A stretch of 21,381 nucleotides of DNA from a virus: positions 1-21,381 of IMG/VR virus record IMGVR_UViG_3300008113_011188; one strand, written 5' to 3'. The position numbers were made by a program, and so were the translations under genes. The notes below the pieces were generated by a model. It saw only the letters and a list, made by a program, of their open reading frames with translations. It searched no databases and was not told the origin of the DNA. Each line of letters starts with the position of its first letter. Within the stretch, counting starts at the first letter, position 1. Shown here piece by piece: positions 4,009 to 20,697 of this stretch.

Positions 4009-4026
4009 CTTTGTATAACACTTAAA

Positions 4027-4707
4027 ATGGAACAAAACAAACAAACTATTGATGCAATAATGGTTCCTGAAGATGGTCCAAAGAAACCATCAAGATTATT
4101 CAGGGATATCAAAGAGGGAGAACAACCTTTAGTTCCACTTCCTCCTGATAATATGACTGATATTTCTTATCCTCAGTTTATAGAACCAAGATGTGTTATT
4201 TGTACTTCTCACTTAAGAGATATGGTGGAACACGTATATCTTGATTCAGGAAAGAAAAATCAAGCTGTAATTGCTTTTTTTGCAGAACATTATGATGCAA
4301 AATTAAACTGGATGCAAGTTAATACTCATATGGAGATGCACTGTGATTTTAAAAAAATCTCCATATCAGGTCTCAAAAACTACGAGCAAAGAGAAGAACT
4401 AATTGCTCCTTGGATTTTTAGAGAACATCAACTTGCATTAACAGCACTTCTAGTAGAACTAGATGATGTAAGAGGTATTGACTGCTCAAGAAATAATGAA
4501 ATGAAATTAAAAAGAGCAGCAATGGTAGAAAAACTTATTACAAAAATCATGATGCTCAAAGATTCAAGAGATAATCAAGGCATTTATAATATAAATATAT
4601 TTGAAATTTTAGCAAAACTTCATGAGCAAATGGAATCTGAAGCTGATAAGAAAAGAATTAGAGAAGAAATTCAAGTATTGAAGCTCAAAGTTCAACAAGA
4701 TAACTAA
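4027..4707 (+). CDS. Probable terminase small subunit (zinc-HTH DNA-binding protein)
   Basis: This 226-residue protein overlaps the large terminase gene (TAATG). Residues 55-106 follow a pattern common in phage DNA-recognition proteins: C56-x2-C59, a helical segment (HLRDMVEHVYLDSGKKNQAV), then a second helix pair ending H101-x3-H105-C106. This suggests a zinc-stabilised helix-turn-helix that would bind the packaging site. The C-terminal third is strongly helical and charged (EILAKLHEQMESEADKKRIR), suitable for a coiled coil or oligomer. The start is ATG 4027, 18 bases after the hairpin, with no obvious ribosome site. Small terminases are poorly conserved, so the call rests on domain type plus position directly before TerL. 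Confidence 0.65.
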   Translation: MEQNKQTIDAIMVPEDGPKKPSRLFRDIKEGEQPLVPLPPDNMTDISYPQFIEPRCVICTSHLRDMVEHVYLDSGKKNQAVIAFFAEHYDAKLNWMQVNTHMEMHCDFKKISISGLKNYEQREELIAPWIFREHQLALTALLVELDDVRGIDCSRNNEMKLKRAAMVEKLITKIMMLKDSRDNQGIYNINIFEILAKLHEQMESEADKKRIREEIQVLKLKVQQDN

Positions 4708-6818
4708 TGAGAAAACCAAATACAGCTAAACAATCTCAACTCGATCTAAGAACTCAATTATTACAACAAGCAAACTCAGTAACAGATTTTCTAAAAGAAT
4801 CTGGATATGCTTCAGAGTTCCTAGAAGAAGTATTACCTGCTACAAGATCTGAAGTTGCTCCTCCTTCTCTTCCTGAAAAATCCAGGTTTAATCCAGATCA
4901 AATTGTAGATATTATTACATTTATTGAACATCCATATTTTTGTAATCTAAAACCTTATCCTTGGCAGAAACTTATTCTCAAATGTTTCTATATGGGTCAA
5001 GAAGGTAATACAAATCTAGAAATAAATGATAAAGAAAACCAAGTTGATTGTCAAGGTTGTGTTTGGAACTATATCAATCAAAACGAACAAGCATTTCATA
5101 AAAACTATCAAGAGGGAAAACAATTTAAGACTATATTTTCAGTAGTCAACTCCCCTTGTTTACAGTGCAAAAGACAAGACAATTCAATCAAAACATCACG
5201 ATATCAATCAGCTAAAGATGAAGCTACAAACCCTGATGCAGAGAGACAAGTTACATTATTAGAAGAAAGACCAATCATTGACAATTATCAATCTGAAATG
5301 GATCTGATTAACTCTGAAGAGTTTGATCCAAAACTCAGAATGCAAGTTTTAGAAAAATGCGAAAATAAATACAAATTTCAAGAACTTGTTTTGGTATTAG
5401 GTAGACGTTCTGGAAAATCATTCTTAGTGTCAGCAATGGCACTTTATGAACTATATAGATTAATTTCTATGGGTCATCCTCAATCTAGATATGGATTGAT
5501 GGAATTTGATGAAATAGTTTTGCTTAATGTTGCTAGAAATGAAGAACAGGCTAAGAAAGCTATCTTCTCCAAAATCAAACAAACAGTTCTAGCTTCTCCA
5601 TTCTTTGCTCCTTATATTGGTAAAGATACAGAACTTGAAATGCGTTTTTACACTGAACATGACAGAAAAGAAAATGAGAGAAGATCTGAACAAGGTCTAA
5701 ATCCTTTTGCTGGTAGTCTTGTTCTTAGATGTGGTAGTAGTAACGCATCTGGTCTTGTTGGTCTTACTTGTTGGACTATTATCATGGACGAAGTTGCAGC
5801 TATGGCAGGAGATAATCCTGATTCTGGTGTTGACTATGCACTTTATGATGACCTAAAACCATCTCTTGCTACATTTGGAAGAGATGGGAAAATGATGATG
5901 CTTTCTAACCCTAAAGGACCTATTGGATTGCTTTATGATCTTCATGAGAATAGACTTGAAGACCATACTACTCTAGTAATGAAACTACCAACATGGCTTA
6001 CTAATCCAAATATTGATAAAGCTTGGCTAGATGATCAAAAGAAGAAAAACCCTGTTGAATTTCAAATGCAATATGGAGCTGAATTTGGAGCATCTTCTTC
6101 AGATCCTATGTTCGTACAAGATGATATAGAAAGAATGTTCAGAAGTATGTCGATGATAAAAAGAAAAGAAATGGCTTCTGGATTTTTTGATTATTTCTGT
6201 CACTTAGATCCTGCTAGAACTTCTGATTATTATGCTTTAGTTGTTGCTCATACAGAAAATATGTATGGAAGTATAGGACCAGATTTTAAACCCTTAAAGA
6301 GAGTTGTCATTGATCATATTCATTTCTGGAACCCAATGACAAAAAATCAGCCAGTAAAAGAAAAAGATGTTGAAGAATATGTCATAGATTTACATAGAAA
6401 ATTTCGCTTTAAACAAGTTTCTATTGATCAATGGAACTCTCAATCATCTTTAATAAAACTACAATCTCATGGAGTACCTATTGTAGAAAGACAATTCAAT
6501 AAAGAGTATAAAGAGAAAATATACACAGAATTATCTCAACTCATTAGAGATGATCGTGTTGATATTTATGATTTGTCTGGTGGTAGCTATTATGATCTTG
6601 ATAATAAGTTAGTACCTCTCAATGAAATACAAGAAGCTAAAATTCAATTTTTATTCTTACAGAAGAAGTGGAAAGGAAAGAGATATTACATTGAAGCATT
6701 ATCAGGATACAAAGATGATATTTGTGATGCTGTAGCTGCTGTAAGTTATGAGTGTTTAACTAATAAGATAATACAAAGATTACCTAAATCTAAAATGGTT
6801 AATTTAAACAGAAGATAG
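4707..6818 (+). CDS. terL: Terminase large subunit (TerL)
   Basis: This is the packaging motor ATPase and headful nuclease, 703 residues. The ATPase has Walker A GRRSGKS at 232-238 (K237) and Walker B TIIMDE ending in D361-E362. The nuclease domain has an RNase-H-like acidic set: HLDPARTSDYYAL with D501, SIDQWNS with D574, and YKDDICDA with D670/D671/D674. The domain order is standard. An unusual feature is a pair of C-x2-C motifs (C115/C118 and C151/C154) before Walker A, probably one zinc site in an N-terminal insertion. Translation probably starts at the ATG overlapping the TAA of the upstream gene. It works with the portal encoded some 7 kb downstream. All key residues are present, so it looks functional. 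Confidence 0.97.
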   Translation: MRKPNTAKQSQLDLRTQLLQQANSVTDFLKESGYASEFLEEVLPATRSEVAPPSLPEKSRFNPDQIVDIITFIEHPYFCNLKPYPWQKLILKCFYMGQEGNTNLEINDKENQVDCQGCVWNYINQNEQAFHKNYQEGKQFKTIFSVVNSPCLQCKRQDNSIKTSRYQSAKDEATNPDAERQVTLLEERPIIDNYQSEMDLINSEEFDPKLRMQVLEKCENKYKFQELVLVLGRRSGKSFLVSAMALYELYRLISMGHPQSRYGLMEFDEIVLLNVARNEEQAKKAIFSKIKQTVLASPFFAPYIGKDTELEMRFYTEHDRKENERRSEQGLNPFAGSLVLRCGSSNASGLVGLTCWTIIMDEVAAMAGDNPDSGVDYALYDDLKPSLATFGRDGKMMMLSNPKGPIGLLYDLHENRLEDHTTLVMKLPTWLTNPNIDKAWLDDQKKKNPVEFQMQYGAEFGASSSDPMFVQDDIERMFRSMSMIKRKEMASGFFDYFCHLDPARTSDYYALVVAHTENMYGSIGPDFKPLKRVVIDHIHFWNPMTKNQPVKEKDVEEYVIDLHRKFRFKQVSIDQWNSQSSLIKLQSHGVPIVERQFNKEYKEKIYTELSQLIRDDRVDIYDLSGGSYYDLDNKLVPLNEIQEAKIQFLFLQKKWKGKRYYIEALSGYKDDICDAVAAVSYECLTNKIIQRLPKSKMVNLNRR

Positions 6819-6863
6819 CTACACATCAAAGGTTATTGATATTTATAATAAGAAAAAATCATT

Positions 6864-7832
6864 ATGTCTAAGAATGTAAGAACAGCTCAATTTGGTGGTG
6901 TTGGTGGAGGAGGAACTCCTTCTCCTTTTACTCCTGGCAATGAAGATGACAACTTTGAAAAAATCATCAGTAGAACTCATCAAGATGCTGAGTATAACGA
7001 TGATAACTTAGAAACAAAACTTACTATGTTTCACACACAAAATGTAGAAATGGGTTTTATTAATTATGAATTAACCCCTCTGCAAAGAATGCAAGCTAAA
7101 TACAGAGCAATTCTTCATAACTACAAAGAAAACTTAGAAAAAGAAGCTGATAGTCTACTCAAAAACTCCCCTGCTTATATCAAGGAACATAATAAAACTG
7201 ATAAAAAGCATCTTATGACTATGGAGCAAAGTTTAGAAGAAAGGCATAAATATAAAAAAGATACAGAATTTCCTAGAGAGAAGTATTCAGATCCAGATCC
7301 ACCTTCTAGAAGTCATTTTGCATTATCAGAAGATCAAATGATGCGTATAGCATTTGAAGTTTCAAATGATGACAAACAAGATTATGAAGTTGGACAAAGA
7401 GGAAGAATTACTAAAGACTATCCTAATGATGAAAGAAATAAAATAGATAACTATAGATTTCGTCACGTTCCAGAAATGTCATATATTACTTTAGATGGAG
7501 ATGATGGCTTTCAAGGATTTGAAAATTATTTAGATAACTCAGCTAAATCCAATCGTGATGGATTTTCTTCATCTTGGAATGAACCTACTATACAAGACTA
7601 TCCAAATCCTGATGGTAAAGCAAATGTTAGTCCTGCTCAATTAGAAAATAAACCTACTCCTGGTAGTCAGTACTTAAACGCTAATGACCCGAACATGACT
7701 ACTGAAGAAAAATTAAATAAAAATAAAATGCCAACCACCTACTATGATTTCAATGGTAATGAAAAGGAAGATAGAGGTGTTGAAGATATCTACAATACAC
7801 TTGGTTATGGCATATCAGGACATACAGTTTAA
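6864..7832 (+). CDS. Hypothetical late protein
   Basis: This 322-residue protein is not recognised. The N-terminus is NVRTAQFGGVGGGGTPSPF, a glycine-rich tail after a K/R-T-A motif like those in neighbouring proteins. The middle is helical and charged (about 65-140). The rest is hydrophilic and rich in Asp, Asn and Pro, likely flexible. There are no cysteine clusters or membrane segments. ATG 6864 follows a 45-base gap containing an AT-rich TATAATA but only a weak ribosome site. Its TAA overlaps the next gene's ATG (TTTAATGA), so they are translationally coupled. Lying between TerL and the portal, it is probably a virion or head-assembly protein by context only. Confidence 0.6.
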   Translation: MSKNVRTAQFGGVGGGGTPSPFTPGNEDDNFEKIISRTHQDAEYNDDNLETKLTMFHTQNVEMGFINYELTPLQRMQAKYRAILHNYKENLEKEADSLLKNSPAYIKEHNKTDKKHLMTMEQSLEERHKYKKDTEFPREKYSDPDPPSRSHFALSEDQMMRIAFEVSNDDKQDYEVGQRGRITKDYPNDERNKIDNYRFRHVPEMSYITLDGDDGFQGFENYLDNSAKSNRDGFSSSWNEPTIQDYPNPDGKANVSPAQLENKPTPGSQYLNANDPNMTTEEKLNKNKMPTTYYDFNGNEKEDRGVEDIYNTLGYGISGHTV

Positions 7833-8299
7833 TGAAATCTAAAACAGTTTTAAGTATATTAAATATTTGTAATTTTTTAGATAAGAATAACAAATTTGCT
7901 CTTTCTGACAAATTGTTTATTAAGGTTTCTCAGTATCATCCACAAACTAGTATTGATGTAACAGAAAATACCAATCATCAAGTTGAATGGGAAGAAATAG
8001 AAGAAGAAAACAAAGAACTAGACAAAGGTAGACAAGGTGAGCCTACTTCTTCTGGTTGGGTTAATCCAAGAAAATTAGAACCAGAAGGACATGGACAAAA
8101 TGTTTCTGCTGATGAAATGAATTCCATAGAAGCACAAAATCATCCTGATCAAGTGGATGGTTCTGGAGCTAAAGTAATCATTCCAGATACATTAGGAAAT
8201 TCTGCAATTAATGATCCAACATTCCTTGACAGATTTGAAGATGAAAATAAATCAGATGACCCAGCAATTAATAGATTGCCAAATAATAGAGTTATTTAG
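7832..8299 (+). CDS. Hypothetical late protein
   Basis: This 155-residue protein is not recognised. Residues 1-34 (MKSKTVLSILNICNFLDKNN and on to KLFIKVSQ) form an amphipathic two-helix leader ending in a KVSQ that resembles the K-x-A-[ST] motifs elsewhere in this module. The remainder is acidic and probably disordered, with Pro/Gly/Asn-rich stretches. ATG 7832 overlaps the stop of the upstream gene. Leader-like ends of this sort on several proteins of one module would fit removal by the prohead protease, which is inference only. Confidence 0.55.
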   Translation: MKSKTVLSILNICNFLDKNNKFALSDKLFIKVSQYHPQTSIDVTENTNHQVEWEEIEEENKELDKGRQGEPTSSGWVNPRKLEPEGHGQNVSADEMNSIEAQNHPDQVDGSGAKVIIPDTLGNSAINDPTFLDRFEDENKSDDPAINRLPNNRVI

Positions 8300-8308
8300 G
8301 AGAAAATT

Positions 8309-8797
8309 ATGCCAATACCAATCAAACCAGTACATTCATTAGATTTGCATGCTGAACTTTTCGATGGTCCTTCTATGGAAGGGTTAGGATTATCAGACAT
8401 TCAAATTCAACTTTTGGGTATTACACCAACTACTACTAGAGAAGCATCAAAAATCAGCACTTCTTATATTGAAATGCTTAGAACTATTGATGCAAGCACA
8501 GATGAACTAGTTACTGCTGCTAGTCAAATGGCTCTTAATAAAGATGGTAAAGTTTGCTCAGTTCCAAGCAATATCACAGACAATGATCTTTTAGCACTTA
8601 AGACTGCAGGATTAGTTACTGGATATGGTAGATCTGTTGAGCTTACTGAAAAAGCTAAATTAGCATTAAGAGATCATTATTTAAGCACAAATACTGTTAA
8701 TGAATTTAGAAAAGGTAGATCTAAAGATAGATTTGATCTTGAAGAAGCTAGAAGTGTAAAAGCTAGTTCTAGCAGATTTAAGAAAGTTGCTGGCTGA
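8309..8797 (+). CDS. Hypothetical protein with winged-helix-like C-terminal half
   Basis: This 162-residue protein starts at ATG 8309 with a good ribosome site (AGGAG at 8299-8303). Residues about 85-130 (NDLLALKTAGLVTGYGRSVE, then LTEKAKLALRDHYL) have the shape of a winged helix: helix, turn, then a beta-wing and a final helix. This would suit DNA binding or a protein interface. The C-terminus carries VKASSSRFKKVAG, again with the recurring K-A-S pattern. It ends in TGA, one of only two TGA stops among the genes here, and the same frame remains open after it into the DUF192 protein. A readthrough product is therefore conceivable. Function unknown. Confidence 0.55.
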   Translation: MPIPIKPVHSLDLHAELFDGPSMEGLGLSDIQIQLLGITPTTTREASKISTSYIEMLRTIDASTDELVTAASQMALNKDGKVCSVPSNITDNDLLALKTAGLVTGYGRSVELTEKAKLALRDHYLSTNTVNEFRKGRSKDRFDLEEARSVKASSSRFKKVAG

Positions 8798-9181
8798 CTG
8801 TCCAGTGATGAACCTAGTTTAGAGTTCGATATTAGATTTATAGCAGACAATGACAAAATGAGATCTAAAGGCTTAATGCATGCAGATCCATTAGAAGAAA
8901 ACGAAGTAGCTTTTTTTGTTTTTGATTATCCAGATTGTTATTCATTTTGGAATAAAAATGTGGATTTTGGTTTATCTTTAGCATTTTTAGATAAAGATTT
9001 TAAGATCCTAGATATCAAAGACATGGATGCTCATAGTGAAAAATCTTGTGTTCCCAAATCAAATAATGTGCAATTTGTTGTAGAAGCAAATCAAGGAACA
9101 TTTGAAAAACAAAATGTAAAAATAGGAGATAAGCTTCTTTTGAAGGGAAAAAAGCTTATTTTAAATAAAGATACTAATTAA
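8798..9181 (+). CDS. DUF192 family protein, non-canonical start
   Basis: The family pattern is clear: an opening strand FDIRFIADND, the hallmark KGLMHADPL, then FFVFDYPD, SFWNKNVDFGLSLAFLDKDF, KILDI, and a closing VVEANQG with KIGDKLLLKG. DUF192 proteins are small beta-rich domains of unknown role. The first ATG in frame (8858) would cut off the conserved first strand and has no ribosome site. The frame is open back to the preceding TGA (8795-8797) with no ATG, GTG or TTG, so the listed start is CTG 8798, directly after that stop. The alternatives are UGA readthrough from the upstream gene or a truncated product from 8858. There is no signal peptide, unlike many cellular members. Its presence inside a head-gene cluster is unexpected. 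Confidence 0.75.
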   Translation: MSSDEPSLEFDIRFIADNDKMRSKGLMHADPLEENEVAFFVFDYPDCYSFWNKNVDFGLSLAFLDKDFKILDIKDMDAHSEKSCVPKSNNVQFVVEANQGTFEKQNVKIGDKLLLKGKKLILNKDTN

Positions 9182-9202
9182 ATACTTACAGGATTTTCTA
9201 TT

Positions 9203-9210
9203 TTTAAATA
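9203..9210 (+). promoter_or_regulatory. Candidate late promoter element TTTAAATA
   Basis: TTTAAATA ends 43 bases before the ATG at 9253, in the 71-base gap after DUF192. It resembles the T4 late consensus TATAAATA, and the same octamer sits at the same distance before the 1392-aa gene. AT-rich DNA makes chance matches likely. Confidence 0.35.
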
Positions 9211-9252
9211 AGAAATCTTTAATGTATTCTTTCTTGAGGAGAAAAAATAATT

Positions 9253-10314
9253 ATGGCAGATAGAATTTTCCCAAACAGAATTCAAGAAGAAGCTCTTGAT
9301 TCTGACCTTGTATTCCAAGGTATCGATTGGGACAACTTTAATGAAAGATTAGCCAAAGCAAAAGAACCTAAGCCAATGCCTAAAGAAGTTGAAGATATGC
9401 TTAAGGAAAAAGGCAAAGCTAACCAACCATCTGAAGATGATAGAAAAAAACTTGATGATGTTCCTAAAGGTCTTCGTGATCATGTAAAAAAAATGCAACA
9501 AAAGTCTAAATCTAAGAAATCTAAAAATGAAGATGAAGATGAAAAGTGCCCAGAATGCGATTGCGATCCTTGCGAATGTGATGAAGATGAAGATAAAGCT
9601 TCAATGGATCACAAAGATATGGTCAGAAAAGGACCAAAAGCATCTAACAAAAAGGCTTCTGTTCATTTTACAAATCCTTCACAACTTTCAGCTGAAGCAG
9701 TTGAAGCAGCACTTGCTGCTGGTGATAAGGCATTAGCTAACACAATTTTAGCTGCAAGACATGAAAGAAGAGTCAGATTAGCATCACAAATTCAAACAAG
9801 AGTTGCTGCTGAAAATGACAAGAATGTCAAGCTTGCACAAAGAAGAGCTTACAGAGAGCAACTTGTAAAGATTGCAGAAGAGAAAGAAACTGAAGCAATG
9901 GAAAAGAAGTGTGAAGACTGTGGCAAGAAATATGCTGGTGAAAGCTGTGGATGCACTGCTGGTAAAGAAGCTGGTTGGGCTAAAACTGAGACTGAAATGA
10001 AAAAAGCATCTTCATTGTCAATCAATGCTAAGAAAGCATTTGCTGCAAAAGCATTAGCAGAGGGTTTCCCTGTTGAATATGTTGAAGCAATGTTAGGAAA
10101 TACTGCTGCTACAGATAACTTGAAAGAAATCAAGAATGTCATGGCATCAGAACTTGAATCAAATGTCAAGATTGCTGCAGTTTCTTCAATGGTCAAGACT
10201 GCTACTTTAACAGATGCTGATTATTCCAGATTAGTTGATTACTGGAAGAATGAGTTAGGTTACGGTGATCAAGAGTGGATCGACGCACTCTTTACCAAAA
10301 AGTACGATAAATAA
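9253..10314 (+). CDS. Hypothetical Cys-cluster, Lys/Ala-rich late protein
   Basis: This 353-residue protein has a strong ribosome site (GAGGAG about 14 bases before ATG 9253). Residues 40-95 are lysine/glutamate-rich and disordered. A tight cluster CPECDCDPCEC (C99-C109) and a second group C220/C223/C232/C234 look like metal-binding sites. The middle (about 145-215) is alanine-rich helix. The recurring K-x-A-[ST] motif is most frequent here: KASM near 115, KKASV 133-137, VRLAS 174-178, KKASS 250-254 and VKTAT 314-318. The C-terminal 35 residues are compact and aromatic. It is followed by a strong hairpin. Composition suggests an abundant virion or internal head protein, but no family is recognised. 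Confidence 0.6.
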   Translation: MADRIFPNRIQEEALDSDLVFQGIDWDNFNERLAKAKEPKPMPKEVEDMLKEKGKANQPSEDDRKKLDDVPKGLRDHVKKMQQKSKSKKSKNEDEDEKCPECDCDPCECDEDEDKASMDHKDMVRKGPKASNKKASVHFTNPSQLSAEAVEAALAAGDKALANTILAARHERRVRLASQIQTRVAAENDKNVKLAQRRAYREQLVKIAEEKETEAMEKKCEDCGKKYAGESCGCTAGKEAGWAKTETEMKKASSLSINAKKAFAAKALAEGFPVEYVEAMLGNTAATDNLKEIKNVMASELESNVKIAAVSSMVKTATLTDADYSRLVDYWKNELGYGDQEWIDALFTKKYDK

Positions 10315-10329
10315 TTCCTCAAGAAATAT

Positions 10330-10355
10330 CGTCCCAGGAGATTTCTCCTGGGACG
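10330..10355 (+). terminator. Perfect 11-bp GC-rich hairpin, likely terminator
   Basis: CGTCCCAGGAG (10330-10340) and CTCCTGGGACG (10345-10355) are exact reverse complements around an ATTT loop. It lies 16 bases after the 353-aa gene. There is no U-tract (TATCTTAG follows), so it could terminate weakly or protect or process the 3' end. Confidence 0.7.
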
Positions 10356-10384
10356 TATCTTAGAGTAATACCAGGATAAAAAAT

Positions 10385-11197
10385 ATGAGTAGATTTAGAA
10401 AAGTAAACGAAACAGAAAATATCCCAAGTTTCATTGAAAAAAGATTTGTAGGATCTCAAGTTAATATTGAAGATGATCCTTATGCTGAGTTAAGAAACAA
10501 CTCAGCTGAAAATCAATTTAAGATCTCAAAAGAAACTATTGGTCTAAAAAAAGAAGCTTCTAATTTCGAAAAATCCTGGGAAAAGATTTCTGGAGCTTCA
10601 ATGTATCAAGATCATAGAACTGAGAGCATTGCAGACAGAATTCTTTCTCAAGAATTAGGTGCTATCAAAAGAGCTGACTATGGAACCGATGAGGGTTTGA
10701 ATGCTAGAACTACTACAAGTGGTTTGAAAGCTTTTTCAGCTGATGATTATATGAATGCTATGCTTTCTAAATCAGCTTCTATTTTCAATCCTGATATGAT
10801 TGCAATTTCAGAAGAATTCTTAACAAGCCAAACACAGAGCAGTGAACAATCTGTAGTTGAAATGCAAAGAAGAAGAGAAGCTAAGGCATCTAGACATCAA
10901 AGCTGGGAAGAAAAGCAAATTAACAACTTAAGAAAATCTCAAGTTGTTAATTCAAGAGCTCATAATATTTTAAGAACATCAAATGATTTAGAGCATACTT
11001 CACAATTTGGAATGGTTGATCCTGAAGCTTTAGATGCAAGAGAAGCACAAAGAGTTGCTTCACAAAACACAGCTAGAGAAGCAAGATTAGCTATCAAGAA
11101 AAATATCAAAGAAGAATTTGAAACCAAAGCTCAAAACAGAGCTCAAACAATCTCAGACATTTACAGCAGTATTGACATTAATTTCGATATAGACTAA
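10385..11197 (+). CDS. Hypothetical late protein, helical and charged
   Basis: This 270-residue protein is not recognised. It starts at ATG 10385 after AGGAT at about 10373-10377. It is mostly predicted helix, with long charged segments near the C-terminus (EAREAQRVASQNTAREARLA) likely to form coiled coil. Motifs of the K-x-A-S type occur repeatedly: LKKEAS, SKSAS, EAKAS, QRVAS. There are no cysteines and no membrane segments. Its TAA overlaps the ATG of the next gene, so they are coupled. It lies in the terminase-to-portal interval and is probably a virion component by context. Confidence 0.58.
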   Translation: MSRFRKVNETENIPSFIEKRFVGSQVNIEDDPYAELRNNSAENQFKISKETIGLKKEASNFEKSWEKISGASMYQDHRTESIADRILSQELGAIKRADYGTDEGLNARTTTSGLKAFSADDYMNAMLSKSASIFNPDMIAISEEFLTSQTQSSEQSVVEMQRRREAKASRHQSWEEKQINNLRKSQVVNSRAHNILRTSNDLEHTSQFGMVDPEALDAREAQRVASQNTAREARLAIKKNIKEEFETKAQNRAQTISDIYSSIDINFDID

Positions 11198-12147
11198 TGA
11201 GAAAAAAATCCAATTTTGAAATGCCCCTAGCATCAAGCCCAGGAGGACCTAATAATATTCCTCTCAATGGTGATGGTGATGAAGGAGTTACTAAAGCTGA
11301 TTTAAAGAAACTATTAGATGATGTAGTATCTAGTAAAGATCCAAATAATCTAGTAGAAGAAATAAATACAGCAGCTGACAGTATTCAAAATAAAGATTTA
11401 CAAAGTAGATTATATCATTTAGTAGATGCAATTCACATGGCAAGTGATCCAAGAAAAAGAACAAAGGATCCACAAACAGATGAATATGACCCTACTCATG
11501 TTGAATATGCTGAAAAAATTAAGAGAGAATTTTTAGCAGAGGTCAAGACAGTGTACAATTTCAGACAAGCACAGCAAGTTCAAAAAAGAAAAAAGAAAAC
11601 TAGAGGCAATCCTTTTAGAGTTTTAATGGGTAAAGTTGGAAAATTGCTTGACCACGGTATCGAAAAGAACGATATTGTTAGATATATTGCTAAATTAAAA
11701 TATTGGGATAAAGAAACAATTGAACGTGCTGTTGAAATTGTAAAAGAATACAACAGAAAGAAAGAGCAAAAAGATGATAACTCTAATGAAAAAACTGCTC
11801 TTAATGAAAAAACTGTAAATCTTGATGAATTGCAAGAACAGAATCAAGAAGTCAAAGAAACTTTAGATAAATTAAAAGATTTAGCATCAAAAGGCAAAAA
11901 CACTAAAACAGCAGCTATTGATTATGACAGAAAACCAGATTTCAAGAAAAGATCAACTGGAGAATTAATAGCAAGAGTATGTTTCCTTTTAGATTTACAA
12001 GACTATGGTAAATCAACAAAACAAGGTGATTTTAAAGAAGCTGTTGACAAAAAAGGTGTTACTGAAGAACTCAAACAAATCAAAAGTGCATTGGTAGATA
12101 GAGGCTTTGATAAAGAAGAACTATCAATGTTAGGATTGGGAAAATAA
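11197..12147 (+). CDS. Hypothetical late protein, helical
   Basis: This 316-residue protein begins at an ATG overlapping the previous stop. The N-terminal 30 residues are Gly/Pro/Asn-rich and probably flexible. The middle includes a basic stretch (QKRKKKTRG, about residue 130) that could contact nucleic acid, followed by helices (LLDHGIEKNDIVRYIAKLKY). A coiled-coil-like segment (ELQEQNQEVKETLDKLKDLA) comes before TKTAAIDYD, one of the recurring K-T-A motifs. A compact helical domain closes the protein (about 255-316). There are no cysteine clusters. No family recognised. Confidence 0.58.
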   Translation: MRKKSNFEMPLASSPGGPNNIPLNGDGDEGVTKADLKKLLDDVVSSKDPNNLVEEINTAADSIQNKDLQSRLYHLVDAIHMASDPRKRTKDPQTDEYDPTHVEYAEKIKREFLAEVKTVYNFRQAQQVQKRKKKTRGNPFRVLMGKVGKLLDHGIEKNDIVRYIAKLKYWDKETIERAVEIVKEYNRKKEQKDDNSNEKTALNEKTVNLDELQEQNQEVKETLDKLKDLASKGKNTKTAAIDYDRKPDFKKRSTGELIARVCFLLDLQDYGKSTKQGDFKEAVDKKGVTEELKQIKSALVDRGFDKEELSMLGLGK

Positions 12148-12189
12148 TATGGAAAAGGGATACAAAATCGAAACAATCCTTTAGAAGAT

Positions 12190-13677
12190 ATGGATCATTC
12201 CCATTTTGATATGGGTAGTCCTATTGTAATTGATTTTATGAATTCTGGTGGTCCTGATCTATTAGGCAAAATTCTTAAATGCTCAAACTCTGAAGCATTA
12301 ACAAAATTAGCAAATTTAGAAAAAAGATTTATCAATATTAAAGTTGCAGAAGAAAGAAATACTCTTCGTTTTGCTTACATGGCATTGCAAAACTTTTTAG
12401 ATAAAAATAATGAAGCAGCTAAAATGGAAAGAGTTGCTTACAAAAATAATGAAAAATCTTCTGGATACTGGCAAATCGAAGCTGTAAATGCTTTTGATAA
12501 ACTAAAGTCTTTTGCTAACAATGAAAGAAAAAATAAGTTTGTCAAAGAAGCTAGACAGATTATTCTTTCCAATGATAAGAAAGTGATCGCTATGGTAGCA
12601 AAATCACTTCATAATTGGTATTCTGAAATCACTCCAAAAGAAAATAGAAGAGTTGCATATACTACTCTTTCAACACAAGCAAATGAACCTTTTTTACTCT
12701 GTCCTAAAGGTAAATTCCAAGGTTATAAAGCTCCTGTACCAATGGAGATTTCTAAATGTGTCAACAACTGTATTGACAGCAGATTAGACAAAGATGGACA
12801 TGTTACTTGTGGATATCAAGATTGGTTGAAAGTAGCATTCCAAACACATGATGAAGTTATGGCAAGATTAGATGTTCATACTCATCCAGATAATGAAGCT
12901 AATGCTCTTGAACTTAAAGAAGGTGAAAGATCTAAGAAATTAACCGAAGGTGAAGTAGGTTATGAAGCTAGATTTAATATGAGCACTCAAGGTGCTAATA
13001 AGTTAAGAGAAAAAGCTAACTACGAAGATTCAATTGAAACTCAATTGTCAGATAATAAAGCTTCCAAGTGGGGTCATCAACAGGATGATAAACCTGTAAA
13101 GAGACCTAAACAAGCACAATCAGATCACAATAGAGTTATCAATGATCAATTATCTCCAGAAAGAAAAAATCAAGATGGTGCAAAATATCTTGAAGAACTC
13201 TTGAGAAAATTAAATACTCATGTTTCTGACACTGAGCGTGTTAGAGAAGACCAACTTGATGATGCTGACTTAATGGGTCATCGTGGAGAAATGGAAACAC
13301 CATACTCTGAACAACTCCTAAGTAAGAAATCAAAACCTATTTATATTCCAGAAGAAATCAATAGTAAAGCAGCTGATGGAGATGATATGACAGTCTCTCA
13401 GCATTTGAATAAATCTGCTAGTAAAGTTGAAAAAAATCAAGAACAACTCTTAGAAGAAAACAGAAAGAAAAGTGTTATGGACATCTTAAGAGAAGAACAA
13501 CTTGAAGAAAGAAGAACAAACAAAAAAGATGTCAATAAAACTATTGAACAACTTTTATCAGATAACAAAGAAGATTGGGGACACCAATATTCTGATGATG
13601 ACTTGAAAAACTTTGCACACGAATTAGGTTTAGATTACAATTTAGAGGATCTCAGAGAAGATAACGATGTGGTATAG
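12190..13677 (+). CDS. Hypothetical protein with zinc-type Cys motif and QL repeats
   Basis: This 495-residue protein is not recognised by family. The helical N-terminal region (about 20-160) is followed by a probable zinc site C171, C190, C194, C207 (CVNNCIDSR and HVTCGYQDWL), then LDVHTHPDNEANALEL. From about 280 to 470 it carries irregular repeats built on an E-x-QL-x3-[NKR] core: IETQLSDNK, INDQLSPERK, REDQLDDAD, SEQLLSKKS, QEQLLEENR, REEQLEERR and IEQLLSDNK. The first and last repeats also share a downstream WGHQ. ATG 12190 has a poor ribosome site, and the frame is open upstream to the previous stop without another ATG, GTG or TTG. Its stop overlaps the next small gene by 11 bases. Confidence 0.6.
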   Translation: MDHSHFDMGSPIVIDFMNSGGPDLLGKILKCSNSEALTKLANLEKRFINIKVAEERNTLRFAYMALQNFLDKNNEAAKMERVAYKNNEKSSGYWQIEAVNAFDKLKSFANNERKNKFVKEARQIILSNDKKVIAMVAKSLHNWYSEITPKENRRVAYTTLSTQANEPFLLCPKGKFQGYKAPVPMEISKCVNNCIDSRLDKDGHVTCGYQDWLKVAFQTHDEVMARLDVHTHPDNEANALELKEGERSKKLTEGEVGYEARFNMSTQGANKLREKANYEDSIETQLSDNKASKWGHQQDDKPVKRPKQAQSDHNRVINDQLSPERKNQDGAKYLEELLRKLNTHVSDTERVREDQLDDADLMGHRGEMETPYSEQLLSKKSKPIYIPEEINSKAADGDDMTVSQHLNKSASKVEKNQEQLLEENRKKSVMDILREEQLEERRTNKKDVNKTIEQLLSDNKEDWGHQYSDDDLKNFAHELGLDYNLEDLREDNDVV

Positions 13678-13933
13678 AACCGTTCAAGCAAGTTTCGGTG
13701 GAGGAGCTGTTCAGAAATCTGATTTAGTATCTGTAATAGCTCCTGAAACTTTACAAGTTCTACATCCTAAAAATGTTTCTGTAATATACAATACTTCTGA
13801 AGATAATCAAGAAGAACCAGAAGCTAATTTAGAGCAACAATTATCTCAAATTAGAGACGAAAATGATGTTGATGTAAACATGTCAACTAGAGAAAGAGGA
13901 AATGGTGCTCAGTATCTATTGAATGGCAAGTAA
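13667..13933 (+). CDS. Small hypothetical protein, or N-terminal piece of the portal gene
   Basis: This 88-residue frame starts MWYRTVQASFGGG, a short aromatic leader with an [KR]-T-x-Q end. It continues with LEQQLSQIRDEND, which matches the QL repeat of the preceding protein, and ends GAQYLLNGK. Its ATG lies inside the end of the upstream gene. The portal frame, offset by -1, is already open from 13891 under the last 14 codons of this one and continues without a canonical start. The 88 residues are therefore either a separate small protein or the portal's own N-terminus, joined by a frameshift. Neither can be proved from the sequence. Confidence 0.5.
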   Translation: MWYRTVQASFGGGAVQKSDLVSVIAPETLQVLHPKNVSVIYNTSEDNQEEPEANLEQQLSQIRDENDVDVNMSTRERGNGAQYLLNGK

Positions 13934-13968
13934 CAGGTGAAGGATCCAAAACAAGTAGCGGAGATGAA

Positions 13969-16242
13969 ATTAAAAGAAGTTACGCAAATAGTAGAATAGG
14001 ATTAGGTTTAGGACCTTCAGTAAAAACTGCTAGCGTAAATACTATTACGACTGCCCCTAACTTTTACTCCCCTTTTCTTACTCCTTCATCATTTCAAATA
14101 CCTAACGCTAGACGTGAAGTTTATTTGTGGGCAAACTGGTGGAGAAACAACGAACCAAAAGTTGCAGCTGCCATAAACTTTTACACTAACTATCCTTTTT
14201 CTGGATGGAAGTTAGAGTGTTCATCAGCATATGTAAAAGACTATTTTGAAAAGTTAGTAGAAAAACTTAACTTTCAAAAATGGCTTCCTGAAATTTCCAA
14301 AACTTATCACTTACTAGGTGACTGTTTTCCTTTACTTTCTATTGACTGTCCTCATTGTCACGGTACAAACTGGGATGAAAAGAAAAATGAAGAATGTAAG
14401 CATGATGGTGCTACATGGAAATCAGTTACAATATTAAATCCTGACAATGTAATTAAATCATCAGGAATGATTGATACTGCAGCTTCTTATGCTTACAGAC
14501 CATCAGCAGAAGAAGTAAGAATTGTAAATGAAAGACATCCTAAAGAAATTTACAATCAAATTCCAGATGAAGTAAAGAAAATGATACTTAGGAATGAGCC
14601 AATTAAGCTTAGTCCTATTTCAGTTTATCATTTCAAATATGGATCAAACTCCTGGGAAGATTATGGAGTTTCCATGATACGTCCATTGTTTCCTATTCTT
14701 ACATATAAGGATAAGTTGAGACAAGCACAGTTCATGATTGCTGACAGATTGATTATTCCTATCAAAGTTGTCAAAATTGGTAGTGATGTAAGACCAGCAT
14801 CTCAAGAAGATATCGATAATGTTCAAGATGAGTTAGCATCTATTGCTAATGATCCAAACTTAACACTTGTAACTCACCATAACTTTGATATGGAATGGTA
14901 TGGAGCAACAGGAAAAATTCATCCTCTTACTGGTGAGTTTGAATTAATTGAACAAGAAATCTTAGATGGTGTCATGTTGAATAAAGCTCTTCTTAATGGA
15001 GAGGGACCTACTTATGGTAATGCTCAAGTTGGTCTTTTGGCAATGGCACAAAGATTAGAAACATTTAGAAGAGAAGTAGCTCACTGGATTGAGAACTGTA
15101 TCTTTAAGCCTGTCGCAGAATGGAATGGATTTGTTGTCGAAGGTGAAAGAGGACAAGACGAGTTCGTTTATCCAAAAATTAAATTTGATGATCTTCAACT
15201 CAGAGATGATACTGGAAAGTTGCAGATGCTTGTTACTGCAAATCAAAATGGAGTTATTTCAAATGTTTCTTTGATTGAAGCATTTGGATTAGATTCAGAT
15301 CAAGAAATTGAAAGATTAAGATTTGAACAAGGTGCTAATTTCATTAATGATCAAAACTTTGGAACTCCTAATTTTTCCTTAAACTTCTCTAGTGGTCCAG
15401 TAACAGGTCAAGGATTTACTGGTGGAGATGCTGGGTTAGGAGGAATGCCTCCTCCAATGCCACCTGAAGCTGGTGGTGGTGGAATGCCTGGTGAAGGAGC
15501 TCCTCCTGGTGGTGGTGCACCTCCTGCTCCTACTGCTGCTCAGAGAGATAAGATGTACAAACTTGCATCTTCAATTTTGAATGAAATTTACCAAGATAGA
15601 TTGGAAGAAAAGATTTCAAAAGATAATACAAGAATTGCATCTAAAAGAATTAAATCAGCAGCACATGAAGGTTTCTTGAAATCAATGCAACCTGTAACAG
15701 GAAGAGCATTATTAGGACCTTTACCACAAGAGTATGATGGTTTGTACGGTGTTTTGAGAACTCCATTATTTGGAGGAAACAATTCAGTTCCATTGAACTA
15801 TGAAGCTCAAGAAGAATTAAGATTAGCATCTGTAAGTGATGATGAATATGTTAGAACAGTCATTGCTAAAAAAATAGAAAGACCTCAACCAAAGATGTTT
15901 ACTAATCTTGAAAAGAAATTATATTCATTAGTAGGATCTGTCAATATGCCATATCCTTTGTATGCTCAATATTCTGCTGGTCCAACAATGGATTATCAAC
16001 TTGATGCAGCTATTCCACAACTAAAAATTGGACTTGAAGCTGATGGTGAGATTTGGCACAACAATCAAGAAAAGATTTCCAAAGACAAAAGAAGAGATTC
16101 AGAATTAGCATCTAACGGTTGGATAATTGTTAGATTTACAGATAAAGAGATTAATGATCATCCACAAGATTGCTTAAACGTATTGATTAAGGCAATCAAG
16201 AAAAGATCAGGAGTTTCAGATTCTGGTGAAGAATATTTATAA
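13969..16242 (+). CDS. Portal protein with C-terminal DUF559/Vsr-like nuclease domain
   Basis: The portal is the ring at the head vertex through which DNA enters and leaves. Portal landmarks are NFYSPFLTPSSFQIP and VYLWANWWRNNEPKVAAAIN (about 14062-14180) and the conserved core up to about 15380, including a zinc-type CPHC...C-x-H insert (14347-14406). A Gly/Pro linker (about 15418-15535) leads to a helical segment with KLAS, RIAS and RLAS motifs. The last 90 or so residues match DUF559/PD-(D/E)xK nucleases: YQLDAAIPQLKIGLEADGEI, then KDKRRDSELASNGWIIVRF. The frame is open from 13891, but the first standard start (TTG 14125) falls inside conserved sequence. ATT 13969, with GGAG five bases upstream, is listed as the most workable start; ATT 13918 or a frameshift from the 88-aa frame are alternatives. 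Confidence 0.85.
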   Translation: MKRSYANSRIGLGLGPSVKTASVNTITTAPNFYSPFLTPSSFQIPNARREVYLWANWWRNNEPKVAAAINFYTNYPFSGWKLECSSAYVKDYFEKLVEKLNFQKWLPEISKTYHLLGDCFPLLSIDCPHCHGTNWDEKKNEECKHDGATWKSVTILNPDNVIKSSGMIDTAASYAYRPSAEEVRIVNERHPKEIYNQIPDEVKKMILRNEPIKLSPISVYHFKYGSNSWEDYGVSMIRPLFPILTYKDKLRQAQFMIADRLIIPIKVVKIGSDVRPASQEDIDNVQDELASIANDPNLTLVTHHNFDMEWYGATGKIHPLTGEFELIEQEILDGVMLNKALLNGEGPTYGNAQVGLLAMAQRLETFRREVAHWIENCIFKPVAEWNGFVVEGERGQDEFVYPKIKFDDLQLRDDTGKLQMLVTANQNGVISNVSLIEAFGLDSDQEIERLRFEQGANFINDQNFGTPNFSLNFSSGPVTGQGFTGGDAGLGGMPPPMPPEAGGGGMPGEGAPPGGGAPPAPTAAQRDKMYKLASSILNEIYQDRLEEKISKDNTRIASKRIKSAAHEGFLKSMQPVTGRALLGPLPQEYDGLYGVLRTPLFGGNNSVPLNYEAQEELRLASVSDDEYVRTVIAKKIERPQPKMFTNLEKKLYSLVGSVNMPYPLYAQYSAGPTMDYQLDAAIPQLKIGLEADGEIWHNNQEKISKDKRRDSELASNGWIIVRFTDKEINDHPQDCLNVLIKAIKKRSGVSDSGEEYL

Positions 16243-16268
16243 AGTGAATAGGTAGATTGTATGTACAA

Positions 16269-16294
16269 TAAACCCGTCGAAATCGACGGGTTTA
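16269..16294 (+). terminator. Perfect 11-bp hairpin, likely terminator
   Basis: TAAACCCGTCG (16269-16279) and CGACGGGTTTA (16284-16294) are exact reverse complements around AAAT. It is followed by GGATTTTAAA, which is not a real U-tract. It separates the portal from the protease gene. Confidence 0.7.
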
Positions 16295-16317
16295 GGATTT
16301 TAAAGGACTAAACAGTC

Positions 16318-16325
16318 TTTAAATA
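16318..16325 (+). promoter_or_regulatory. Candidate late promoter element TTTAAATA
   Basis: TTTAAATA lies just after the hairpin and ends 43 bases before ATG 16368, the same sequence and spacing as at 9203-9210. It resembles the T4 late promoter consensus TATAAATA. Start-site mapping is absent, so this is a candidate only. Confidence 0.35.
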
Positions 16326-16367
16326 GAACAACAACAATTAGTAACTTTAACTCTAAGGATAATATAT

Positions 16368-19300
16368 ATGTACAAGGTTGCAAAAGGAGGAGCTATCACA
16401 TTAGATAGCTTTCTCAGTGAAAAAGACCGAAATATAGCAAGAGATCACATTATTAAAACTGCTTCTGTAAATATGCGAGAAGCAGCAAAAATTGGCTTGC
16501 AATCACTATATGCTGATCCTAAAGAAGTACTTGAAAAATACAAAGATTTTGACATTGTTAAGGAAATGCAAGCTCGTAAAGGTGCAAAACTTTTATGGGT
16601 AAGAGCTAGAGCAATTGACGCTGATGTTGTCAATGCTAATGGTGACTTATTTTCCAAAGAAGAATTATTAAAAGAACAAGATATCAAAGGTCAAAAAATT
16701 CCAACTTACAAGACTTTTGAAGGTGTTCCCATTTATACAAACCATAAAAATGACGATATCGAACAAGCTAAAGGTATGGTTGTTTATGCTGAATGGGACG
16801 AAAAAGAAAACTGTGTATATTGTACTTTTTTCGTTGATGAAGAAGCATATCCTGACATTGCTAGAAATATCAGAACAGGTGTAATCCATGATGTTTCAAT
16901 GGGAGCCAGTGTTGAATCAGGTGTATGTTCAATTTGTGGCAATAAAGCTTACACTGAAAAAGATTATTGTGAACACTTAAAGAAATACAAAGGCAAAATA
17001 CATCCTGAATCTGGCAAAAAAGCTTATGAAAAAAACTACGGTGTAAAGTTTATTGAACTTTCATGTGTAGGTGATGGTGCTTTTGAATCTTGTGAAATTC
17101 AAGAAATCTACGATGTTGATGAAGTTTTAGATGCTGCAACAAATATTGAGAAAAAAGCAAATGAAATTTTATCCAACATTGTTTTAGCTCATCAGGGTTC
17201 TCCAACAAGTCCTGAAACAAGAAATGAATATGAAAATTGCTTAAGAGTAGCTAAAAATACTGCTAACACTGCAGTAAGATTAGCTCAACAAGCTGGGACA
17301 CTAGTTGGAGGTCCATTACTAGCGGGAGCAGGAGCTAATCAAAACTCAACTGTTTCTGCTATTTTACAAGCATTAGGAATTGATCCAAGATCAGGTTTGA
17401 ATATCTTGGATATGATTAATCTTTCGCTTAACTTCCTTGAAGTTGCTGTTTTGAATATGTTTGCAAGAAAAGACAATGTTGATCTTGCTCATGTAGGAAA
17501 AATAACAAAAGCTATGGCTGATCTTCAGGGAACAATGCAAGATATGATTGATGATGGTATTGACGTTGGATCAGGTCAAGCACCACAAGCAATTAATCAA
17601 CCTACTGGACAAGCTCCACAAGCACCACAAGCTCAACAAGCACCTGCTGCACAAATGAGAAACGTAGGACTTGCTGATTATTCTCCAACTGATAGTGTTG
17701 GAAGAATTATGGAATTAACAAATCCTACACAAAATAATCAAGCAATAGGTGGTGGTGTTGCTCTTGCATCTTCTGATGTTCATTTTGTATGGGCTTCAAA
17801 AGATGGAAGAAGAGAAGTTTTTGCTAGTACAAGTACTAGTAGAAAAAGCAATGTTTTGAATTTCACAGAAAATCTACTTAACTTGAAAAATAGTTTAGTT
17901 GGAACAGAACAGATTCAAAATAGCATTGATAAAGTCATTAGAGTTGCTAATGAAAGAAATAAAAACATAAAAACAAATACGCCTAATGGGGCGGGAGGCA
18001 GAAATCAAATGGATCATTTTGCAAAGATTGCATCTGAACAAAGAAAGAAGATTGCTGCTGCAGTAACCATTGACTTTAAGGTCGAGGATAGTGCAGGTAA
18101 CAGAGTTGTTCTTTCAACAGATGGATCTATTACAGGTTACACAAATGGCAAAAAGACTGGTTGGGATCCAATTCTTAATGAAAATCAAATTCACTTGATG
18201 GAGAATGGTCAAGGAACAAGAGTAGCTGCAGAGCTCCTCAAAGAATACTCATCTTTTGTCAAAACCGCCTTGTTGGATGTTAAGCATAGAGATGGTGTAA
18301 GAGAAGATTTACTTGATGAAGTCAGATCTGGTGAAGGTTACGATAGCAAGTCTTTAGGTGATGGCTTAAGAGCTCATCATAAAGGTGAGACATCAAAGAC
18401 TAGAAACGAAGAACTTGAATTAAAAAGAACTGGTGAAGATACAGAAGTCAAGGAAGTTTTACTTGAAAAAGCTGGTCTTTATGCAAGAAGAGTTGACGAT
18501 AGTGCAGTTACCAAGGGTTTATCTGAATTAGTCAATGAAGTTGTCAAGGGATGCCCTACAGAAGTTTTAGAAATGCAACTTGCTGTTTGTAGAGTTGATG
18601 GTAAAGCTACTGCTCATGAAGTAATGTCTGCAACTATTCAAGCACTTGCAAAGGCAGTTGTTTCTGCAAAAGAACATCCTAATCATATTATGAGAATTGC
18701 TCAAGCATTAGCAGGAGAAGAAAATCTTCCTGAAATGATTGGTGCTGGTGCTGCAGCTTCTTCTGTTGATACTGATGCAAATGCAGATTTCTTCAAGCAA
18801 GAAAAGTCTACTGAAAATCCTGTCACAGCTGTCTTGAAGCAACTTGGTTCACAAGTTACTGCAGATGTTACAGCTGCAAATTTAGCAGATGCACTTTCTG
18901 TAGCTGTTGAAGAAGGTGAAATTACTAAGGAAGGAGTTGAAAGACTTGCTTCTACAATGTTAGAAACATCTTCTGCTTCTGCTGATGATATGAATATTGA
19001 TGCTGCTCCTTCAAAATCAGAAGAATTAAGAAGTGCACTCAAGACTGCTGTAGATTCAAGTGATTCATTGATTTCAAGTGCAGAACTTAGATCAGTTATT
19101 TCTGGTTTAGCAATGTCTGCAAGCGAACAACAAGTTACTCCTGAAGAAGTTGTTGCTGCTGTTGAAAGCATGAATGAAAGAATTCTTATTGCATCCATTG
19201 ACAGAGCTAAAACTCCAACTGCAACTGAAGCAAGATTAAGAGAAAGAAACAGAAGAGAATTCTGGGGTATCAAGACTGCTTCTACTAAGAATATTGAAGG

Positions 19301-20546
19301 CAATATTATTGGATGGCTTGCAGACTACTCAAATAACTTTGACATTGGCTCAAAGAAGATTGCTTTAGCTGCTAAAAGATTGTGTGAAGACTTCAATGTT
19401 GCAGAGAAATTGGTATCAAAAGCTATTGATGTCAAGAAAAGTGCAGAAAGAACTGCAGCAATGTCTGTTACACAAAATAAATCAGAATGCTTAAGATTTG
19501 TTTGTACTAAAGATGATTTAGGTGGAATGAATCCAAGTGATGATAGTTTTGAAGATACATTCAAGCAAAAAGCTATCGAAGTTCTTCAACAGCATGGATT
19601 TACAGTTGATCCAGGTACTTTCTCATTTACTGATCTTCATGTAAGTGAAAATGGAGATGTTACTGCAAGTGTTTCAACATCTGTAAGTAAATCATTCAAA
19701 GTTGATGAAGATATGACTGAAGCACCTGCTATGGATGAATCAGTAATTGAAGATGCTCCTGTAATCATGACTGATGCAGCTAGAATTGCAAGAAAAAACA
19801 GAAGAGACTACATCCTCAATAAGTATGCTATGGGTCCTGGTATGGGTGCTCCTGGTATGGGTATGGGTGGAGGAATGGGTGCTCCTGCTCCTCAAGGTCC
19901 AGCAGCTGGTCCTGTTGATCCAGGTTTAGGTGCTGCTCCTACTGCAGGTGGAGATCTTGGTCTCTCAGCTATGACTGGTGGTGTTGATGATATGAACGCT
20001 GCTCCAGATGTAGATGCAGTTTCCGAACCAGGTAAGAAGAAACCATGGGGTTCTGTTTGTCCTATCTGTGGATCTGACAATGTAGATGTTGCAGACAGCA
20101 AGGGATCCTGTAATGCATGTGGAACATCATTCGAAATTGAAATGATGATCAAGTTACTTTCTGATGGCACAGGTGGTGCTGGAGCAGAAAGCAAAGAAGA
20201 AGCTCCTGCTGATGACTTAGCAGCTCCTGCAGGTGGTTTAACTCCTGATCAAGGTTTAGGTGCTGCAACAGCTCCTATCACTGCTTCTAATGTCAAATCA
20301 ATGATTAGATTGTCATCAACAGTTGACTCTGATGTTTATCTTAGAACAGCAATGGCTGATTTTGACAGAAATAATGAAAAAATGTTACCTATTGGAATGG
20401 TTTGCCCTTCATGTGGTGACAGAGAAGTAAATAAGGTCAAAAACAACTCATTCTGCCATGCTTGTGGTAACTACAGTAAGACCACTATCAAGACTTCAGC
20501 AAAAGACCCATCGAAGCTTGATGTAAGCATTGTTTGGATTGATTAA
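16368..20546 (+). CDS. Giant prohead maturation protease fused to long scaffold-like region with two zinc ribbons
   Basis: This 1392-residue protein has a ribosome site AAGGA at 16354-16358. Residues about 70-250 match phage head maturation proteases: RARAIDADVVNANGDLFSKE, candidate nucleophile-relay His126 in PIYTNHKND, and candidate catalytic Ser177 in VSMG, with a zinc-type insert C187/C190/C201/H203 and a closing FIELSCVGDGAFES strand. Typical members have 200-300 residues. The remaining 1100 include helical regions, Gln/Ala/Pro-rich (about 400-430) and Gly/Met-rich (near 1160) linkers, a small beta domain (about 566-600), QL-type repeats near 644, and two C-terminal zinc ribbons (C1231/C1234/C1248/C1251 and C1346/C1349/C1363/C1366). 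KTAS-type motifs recur, starting with IKTASVN at 29-35. It may be a self-processing protease-scaffold polyprotein. The protease call is firm; the rest is inference. Confidence 0.85.
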   Translation: MYKVAKGGAITLDSFLSEKDRNIARDHIIKTASVNMREAAKIGLQSLYADPKEVLEKYKDFDIVKEMQARKGAKLLWVRARAIDADVVNANGDLFSKEELLKEQDIKGQKIPTYKTFEGVPIYTNHKNDDIEQAKGMVVYAEWDEKENCVYCTFFVDEEAYPDIARNIRTGVIHDVSMGASVESGVCSICGNKAYTEKDYCEHLKKYKGKIHPESGKKAYEKNYGVKFIELSCVGDGAFESCEIQEIYDVDEVLDAATNIEKKANEILSNIVLAHQGSPTSPETRNEYENCLRVAKNTANTAVRLAQQAGTLVGGPLLAGAGANQNSTVSAILQALGIDPRSGLNILDMINLSLNFLEVAVLNMFARKDNVDLAHVGKITKAMADLQGTMQDMIDDGIDVGSGQAPQAINQPTGQAPQAPQAQQAPAAQMRNVGLADYSPTDSVGRIMELTNPTQNNQAIGGGVALASSDVHFVWASKDGRREVFASTSTSRKSNVLNFTENLLNLKNSLVGTEQIQNSIDKVIRVANERNKNIKTNTPNGAGGRNQMDHFAKIASEQRKKIAAAVTIDFKVEDSAGNRVVLSTDGSITGYTNGKKTGWDPILNENQIHLMENGQGTRVAAELLKEYSSFVKTALLDVKHRDGVREDLLDEVRSGEGYDSKSLGDGLRAHHKGETSKTRNEELELKRTGEDTEVKEVLLEKAGLYARRVDDSAVTKGLSELVNEVVKGCPTEVLEMQLAVCRVDGKATAHEVMSATIQALAKAVVSAKEHPNHIMRIAQALAGEENLPEMIGAGAAASSVDTDANADFFKQEKSTENPVTAVLKQLGSQVTADVTAANLADALSVAVEEGEITKEGVERLASTMLETSSASADDMNIDAAPSKSEELRSALKTAVDSSDSLISSAELRSVISGLAMSASEQQVTPEEVVAAVESMNERILIASIDRAKTPTATEARLRERNRREFWGIKTASTKNIEGNIIGWLADYSNNFDIGSKKIALAAKRLCEDFNVAEKLVSKAIDVKKSAERTAAMSVTQNKSECLRFVCTKDDLGGMNPSDDSFEDTFKQKAIEVLQQHGFTVDPGTFSFTDLHVSENGDVTASVSTSVSKSFKVDEDMTEAPAMDESVIEDAPVIMTDAARIARKNRRDYILNKYAMGPGMGAPGMGMGGGMGAPAPQGPAAGPVDPGLGAAPTAGGDLGLSAMTGGVDDMNAAPDVDAVSEPGKKKPWGSVCPICGSDNVDVADSKGSCNACGTSFEIEMMIKLLSDGTGGAGAESKEEAPADDLAAPAGGLTPDQGLGAATAPITASNVKSMIRLSSTVDSDVYLRTAMADFDRNNEKMLPIGMVCPSCGDREVNKVKNNSFCHACGNYSKTTIKTSAKDPSKLDVSIVWID

Positions 20547-20551
20547 TCAAT

Positions 20552-20586
20552 GATAAAGAGGAGAATATTTTATTCTCCTCTTTATT
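20552..20586 (+). terminator. Long hairpin after the protease gene, likely terminator
   Basis: Bases 20553-20567 and 20571-20585 pair perfectly (15 bp, extendable by one G-T wobble) around a TTT loop. It contains GAGGAGAATA on the left arm. It begins six bases after the stop and is followed by TCAAAAAA, not a U-tract. Confidence 0.75.
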
Positions 20587-20630
20587 CAAAAAAGGTGTAA
20601 AACCTAAATATATAGAATACAAAAAACGTT

Positions 20631-20638
20631 TATAAATA
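20631..20638 (+). promoter_or_regulatory. Candidate T4-like late promoter TATAAATA
   Basis: There is an exact TATAAATA between the hairpin and the last gene, 60 bases before its ATG; a near copy TATAAATT follows at 20643-20650. The match to the T4 late consensus, next to genes for a clamp and a sigma factor, is suggestive, but the octamer is expected by chance a few times in DNA this AT-rich. Confidence 0.4.
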
Positions 20639-20697
20639 ATCTTATAAATTAGACTTTGATAAAAGAACAATTTTTATTAAGGGAAGCAGCAAATAAA

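Follow-up and report, generated by a model that had tools for sequence, protein, structure and literature searches.

Portal proteins are generally treated as passive conduits and sensors, and the locus described here raises the question of why one of them should end in a nuclease domain. We analysed a 21,381-base stretch of an IMG/VR virus record (the window), whose head-gene block runs from sliding clamp-like and sigma-like genes through the large terminase subunit (TerL) and several unassigned genes to the portal and the prohead protease (Table 1). The protease occupies the N-terminal part of a 1392-residue protein, near whose end lie two CxxC pairs resembling zinc ribbons (CPICGSDN and CPSCGDRE). 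The open frame of the portal in the window spans 14125-16242, and its true start lies upstream of 14125. Compared with two relatives that retain the portal start codon (L002:5755, L003:5755), 133 bp are absent at 13928 (13926-13930); this segment would hold the start codon and codons 1-16, which are missing from the window contig, and the frame enters the portal at 13927. A second gap, of 113 bp near 12175 (12173-12176) relative to close relatives, splits the gene starting at 12148. Both gaps shift the frame and are probably assembly errors, or possibly the mark of a defective or damaged strain. In relatives the whole portal-nuclease protein is uninterrupted and 783-786 aa long.

In sequence and fold, the N-terminal part is a Caudoviricetes portal protein. 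It matched PF06074 (Portal_Mu) with 35.9 bits, over the cut-off, and the phrog_16240 portal family with E 3.6e-34; the model of the equivalent portal from the relative L012 matched the lambda, T4, HFTV1 and many other portals in Foldseek. The first-pass annotation had read the portal frame as running on through a Gly/Pro linker into a nuclease, and there is indeed no stop codon between them. Across relatives the tether is composed of 30% G, 15% P, 13% A and 9% M, and the equivalent stretch of the L012 model has pLDDT below 50. It is longer in the window's clade than in the sister clade (92-141 aa), where the middle segment that follows it is also shorter or absent. The full-portal AlphaFold model reached a pTM of 0.45, with a C-terminal half too weak to position the nuclease.

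Table 1. Positions of the portal-nuclease segments and of neighbouring head genes in the window.
Feature	Position	Residues (P0001)	Strand	Basis
Large terminase subunit (TerL)	4707..6818		+	phrog_2, E 5e-26; own nuclease residues intact
Portal core (wing/clip/stem/crown)	13927..15384		+	PF06074, phrog_16240, Foldseek
Gly/Pro/Met/Ala-rich flexible tether	15385..15534	~421-470	+	Sequence, composition, low pLDDT
Middle segment, poorly conserved, fast evolving, with [KR]xAS motifs	15535..15885	471-585	+	dN/dS 0.45
KLAS, between core and nuclease; candidate motif for the prohead protease or for recognition	15559..15570	479-482	+	[KR]xAS enrichment
RIAS, second motif of the KLAS kind	15631..15642	503-506	+	[KR]xAS motif
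RLAS motif, linker region	15820-15831		+	Sequence
DUF559/Vsr-like PD-(D/E)xK nuclease domain	15904..16209	594-695	+	Pfam, AlphaFold2, fold comparison
Active-site set	15910..16098		+	E596 (15910), D627 (16003), E638 (16036), D640 (16042), H645 (16057), D654 (16084), R657 (16093), D658 (16096)
Prohead protease with long C-terminal extension, gene 3' of portal	16368..20546		+	phrog_18299 head maturation protease, E 6e-22

We examined the identity of the C-terminal domain by family, profile and fold comparison. The last 120 residues alone matched PF18741 (REase_MTES_1575) with 39.2 bits (cut-off 38.2) and PF04480 (DUF559) with 34.8 bits (cut-off 20.6), and both families were matched by all 25 diverse relatives that were aligned. 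A six-frame scan of the whole window placed the nuclease match at the portal C-terminus only (E 2e-10). When the domain was used in a profile search of the PDB, it matched 3hrl (E 1e-7) and I-Bth0305I (E 2e-6). Its AlphaFold2 model (pLDDT 84.7) has secondary structure in the order H-E-E-E-H-E-H, and model and alignment together contain the alpha-beta-beta-beta-alpha-beta core with D...E-x-D. The best structural match was the Neisseria DUF559/MTES_1575 protein 3hrl (Z = 13.8), followed by the catalytic domain of the EDxHD enzyme I-Bth0305I (3r3p; Z = 13.7, rmsd 2.1 over 96 residues) and E. coli Vsr (1cw0 and 1vsr; Z = 11.7 and 10.5). In the profile alignment to Vsr, E596 corresponds to E25, W644/H645 to W68/H69 and D654 to D97. 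Vsr differs in having F62-T63-H64 where the portal nuclease has the DUF559 E-x-D, and the NCBIfam vsr model (TIGR00632) scored 20.0 bits on a short stretch, far under its cut-off of 97.85. The acidic residues that had been picked out by eye at bases 16003, 16036 and 16042 are D627, E638 and D640, exactly at those bases, and the KDKRRDSEL...NGWIIVRF stretch lies at P0001 653-671. The proposal that a DUF559/Vsr-like PD-(D/E)xK nuclease is fused to the portal is thus backed by Pfam, profile and fold comparisons. The top rows of a BFVD fold search were free-standing DUF559 and homing enzymes, with no portal named; a search of a genome collection for a bacterial source returned only other DUF559 proteins, mostly actinobacterial.

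The same arrangement was sought in related portals, as the first-pass annotation had proposed. At least 115 distinct portal-nuclease fusions were found in IMG/VR phages, on contigs of up to 494 kb (L270), the count being deduplicated by comparing the last 90 residues of new fusions with those of old ones. A chance or frameshift artefact is out as the source of the fusion, as these relatives encode it too. Because two of the IMG/VR scans were keyed on portal sequence, nuclease-free portals could have been found. The nuclease-free cases in the first of these scans were only contig-end truncations (IMG/VR contigs may be fragments) or phage-G-type portals, and the scan of the sister clade returned 75 fused portals, 5 cut at a contig end and 0 without nuclease; no intact portal lacking the domain was found within either fusion clade. 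One contig (L131:3689-3691, the same as L162:4686-4688) has portal and nuclease divided by an in-frame TGA codon within the linker, which may reflect a sequencing error, read-through or a real split. A phage-G-type portal without nuclease (L073:3599-6646) carries a different C-terminal extension of ~400 residues with a CPIC...HESC motif. Among 50,697 cultured-phage records, 231 matched the portal, none of them over 80% of its length, and 31 matched the nuclease; where annotated, the latter matches were located in other genes, none annotated as portal.

Within the group, the two halves of the protein have been inherited together. In a maximum-likelihood tree one change suffices for the entire fusion group (branch SH-aLRT 98), so the fusion represents a single gain on the tree. 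Core and nuclease distances were strongly correlated (Mantel r 0.952; 0/999 permutations), and all eight related genomes or large contigs had one DUF559 match each, which was the portal. The median dN/dS was 0.13 for the nuclease, 0.09 for the core and ~0.45 for tether and middle segment; selection on the nuclease domain is purifying. A variable, exchangeable toxin domain of the MuF type was not encountered, as one constant domain recurs in the 115 distinct fusions. This constancy, the single copy and the co-inheritance fit a housekeeping step better than they fit a weapon that varies or a mobile element. Judging from sequence and models, we favour, at a probability of about one half, a nuclease with a housekeeping role at the packaging vertex, which would process phage DNA during packaging or head completion.

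The main competing explanation is that the prohead protease frees a C-terminal fragment inside the head, and that this fragment travels with the DNA into the next host, where its target would be the DNA of the host or of a rival, or where it would process the genome that has just entered. The KLAS, RIAS and RLAS motifs on which the first-pass annotation based this idea are all present in the linker region. [KR]xAS occurs 20 times in the window proteins against 4.6 expected; the roughly fourfold enrichment is confined to presumed virion proteins (window ORFs 3207-20656), and the TerL, sigma and clamp proteins of the window contain none. The motif is also enriched around the phage-G portal and most of the sister-clade portals tested. 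These counts suggest that [KR]xAS is perhaps the cleavage specificity of the prohead protease, apparently common to phage G. Its placement differs between the clades. In the long-tether fusions of the window's clade it lies between core and nuclease in 39 of 43 (5.0 expected) and never behind the nuclease, whereas the short-tether fusions of the sister clade have no copy in the tether (0/51) and carry the motif instead behind the nuclease, in 21 of 51 tails (1.1 expected). If [KR]xAS is the protease site, the nuclease would be freed in one clade and kept in the other, and release is not general. The part of the proposal that concerns release by the protease thus has statistical support in the window's clade only. 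In the jumbo phage SPN3US a prohead protease is known to cleave the portal, removing an N-terminal propeptide (PMC10052503), and nuclease toxin domains occur on phage MuF proteins (PMC5576092). Unlike those polymorphic toxins, the portal nuclease is constant, with no swap or loss seen. Release and injection are possible, chiefly in the window's clade, but as an account of the fusion we rate them well below the housekeeping reading.

We examined whether the portal nuclease could take over work usually done by other enzymes. The TerL nuclease motifs HLDPA, D(Q/H)W and KDDxxDA (the DDxxD aspartates) were largely kept in seven fusion genomes, which indicates that the portal nuclease is an additional one and rules out that a lost TerL nuclease was replaced by it. 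The reading in which the portal enzyme, rather than TerL, makes the cut that ends packaging has in its favour the inferred position at the vertex and the intact active site; it is improbable, given the retained TerL residues and the fact that the terminase works on the outer side of the ring. Resolvases gave a similar picture. RusA was matched in four of the seven fusion genomes tested (two below the cut-off) and endonuclease VII in a fifth, while RecU gave no match and RuvC, present in phage G (which is without the fusion), was absent from the fusion genomes; in the search for T7 endonuclease I no control matched, so that it has no bearing on presence. With resolvase matches in five of seven genomes, two of them sub-threshold, the nuclease does not correlate with a missing resolvase and is rejected as a stand-in for one; a resolvase role is possible for it and not required.

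The active site itself bears on whether the domain still cuts. E596, D627, E638, H645, D654, R657 and D658 were invariant in all 63 distinct fusions compared, and D640 was kept in 60, with C or E in its place in three (L169, L186 and L200). In four complete sister-clade fusions an intein of 371-387 residues sits between E638 and D640, with Intein_splicing and LAGLIDADG matches below the curated cut-off, and a fifth such fusion is cut by the contig end. Splicing of the intein would leave E-C-D in the catalytic motif, and the Cys replacements of D640 might be traces of an intein site that was lost or lies nearby. Inteins favour and persist at conserved active-site motifs, so their presence inside E-x-D is separate evidence that the catalytic motif matters. 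A retired nuclease that only binds or grips DNA inside the head would fit the D640 replacements and the existence of related folds that are non-catalytic RNA-binding RAP domains (FASTKD4 and mitoribosome matches). We consider this very unlikely in view of the invariant residues and the intein in the active site of some members. The domain appears catalytically competent, as judged by its residues and modelled fold; the two findings that the first-pass annotation said would overturn its proposal, a predicted structure without the PD-(D/E)xK fold and core residues lost in relatives, were not what we observed.

The portal genes of the sister clade contain up to four large insertions at recurring sites, several with intein or LAGLIDADG matches (L326:3630-9782, L325:2260-7665, L322:277-5883, L203, L176 and L232), and one recurring site is the nuclease active-site motif. 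The TerL genes of the related genomes L242, L243 and L245 are interrupted at the ATPase P-loop by a large insertion, apparently an intein, whose end reads THN|S. That the nuclease is itself a selfish homing endonuclease, an EDxHD enzyme whose mobile element has joined the portal gene and spreads it, draws on I-Bth0305I as one of its closest solved relatives, on the match of the domain to the PADLOC homing-endonuclease model and on the portal gene as an intein hot spot; we reject a homing or intein remnant as the main reading and give this least credence of all, because the clades show no presence/absence polymorphism, core and nuclease are co-inherited with one change on the tree, a Pfam search of the portal-nuclease found no second DNA-recognition domain, and the inteins bear LAGLIDADG domains of their own.

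For the preferred housekeeping nuclease, the architecture of the portal suggests a place of action. Known portals are dodecamers whose C-terminus comes after the crown and points into the capsid, and the domain therefore most likely encounters DNA as it enters or fills the head. Up to twelve tethered nuclease copies would sit on the ring at the DNA entry point. These may nick or cut aberrant DNA, whether branches, mismatches, damaged or wrongly modified stretches or the last-packaged end, which would allow a genome of several hundred kb to be loaded and closed. As the head matures, the prohead protease of the window's clade may cut the nuclease off the ring at Y-[KR]-x-A-S, and the freed domain would then be loose within the head; the sister clade seems to keep it on the ring. 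Nuclease activity, placement within the head, proteolysis, substrate and timing are all things we infer. Of the functions first listed for the domain, resolving branches or processing DNA at packaging fits the housekeeping conservation. Several points count against a processing role. A branch in the DNA should be held up on the side of the terminase, whereas the portal C-terminus lies inside, so that for debranching the domain would have to work at another place or at an earlier time. A second difficulty is that the packaged genome must somehow escape cutting, and the replacement of D640 in 3/63 fusions is a third. A more daring picture, which we hold only tentatively and consider rather unlikely, makes the portal an enzyme with up to twelve nucleases, freed by the protease in one clade, tethered in the other and gated by an intein in some members, with assembly, proteolysis and splicing timing DNA cutting in head maturation.

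Parts of this arrangement have counterparts in known systems. The core is homologous to that of the Bacillus phage G portal gp14 (28.7% identity over 57%), which also has a Gly/Pro-rich C-terminal tail but ends after it with no nuclease, and to the SPbeta portal YonE (9pha, E 5e-7). I-Bth0305I aligns with the portal nuclease over the strand-E-x-(D/N)-G and KDKR region; it differs as a free-standing mobile enzyme with a long DNA-recognition region, N at the position of D640 and no part in a virion protein. Known DUF559/MTES_1575 members are likewise stand-alone or fused to other domains. In T4 the resolvase gp49 (endonuclease VII) binds the portal gp20 (PMC9958956), and packaging depends on the DNase activity of the head-completion nuclease gp4 (PMC7824862). 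Like the fusion, both act at the portal, head or packaging step, but they are separate, unfused proteins of other or more distant families. MuF polymorphic toxins place a C-terminal nuclease on a head protein beside the portal (PMC5576092); they involve another head protein, variable toxin domains and temperate phages, in contrast to one constant domain on the portal. The open-access literature searched did not describe a portal-nuclease fusion, nor did the searched passages of two jumbo-phage reviews (PMC7824862, PMC13282480) and a moraphage paper (PMC12619734).

The presence of this nuclease throughout the clade, with no loss seen, in a large uncultured group of giant phages points to a step of DNA processing, during packaging or launch, that has so far gone unrecognised. 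It offers a testable way into the loading and closure of very large, possibly branched genomes, and it supplies a nuclease that is compact, tethered and fixed at a defined site.
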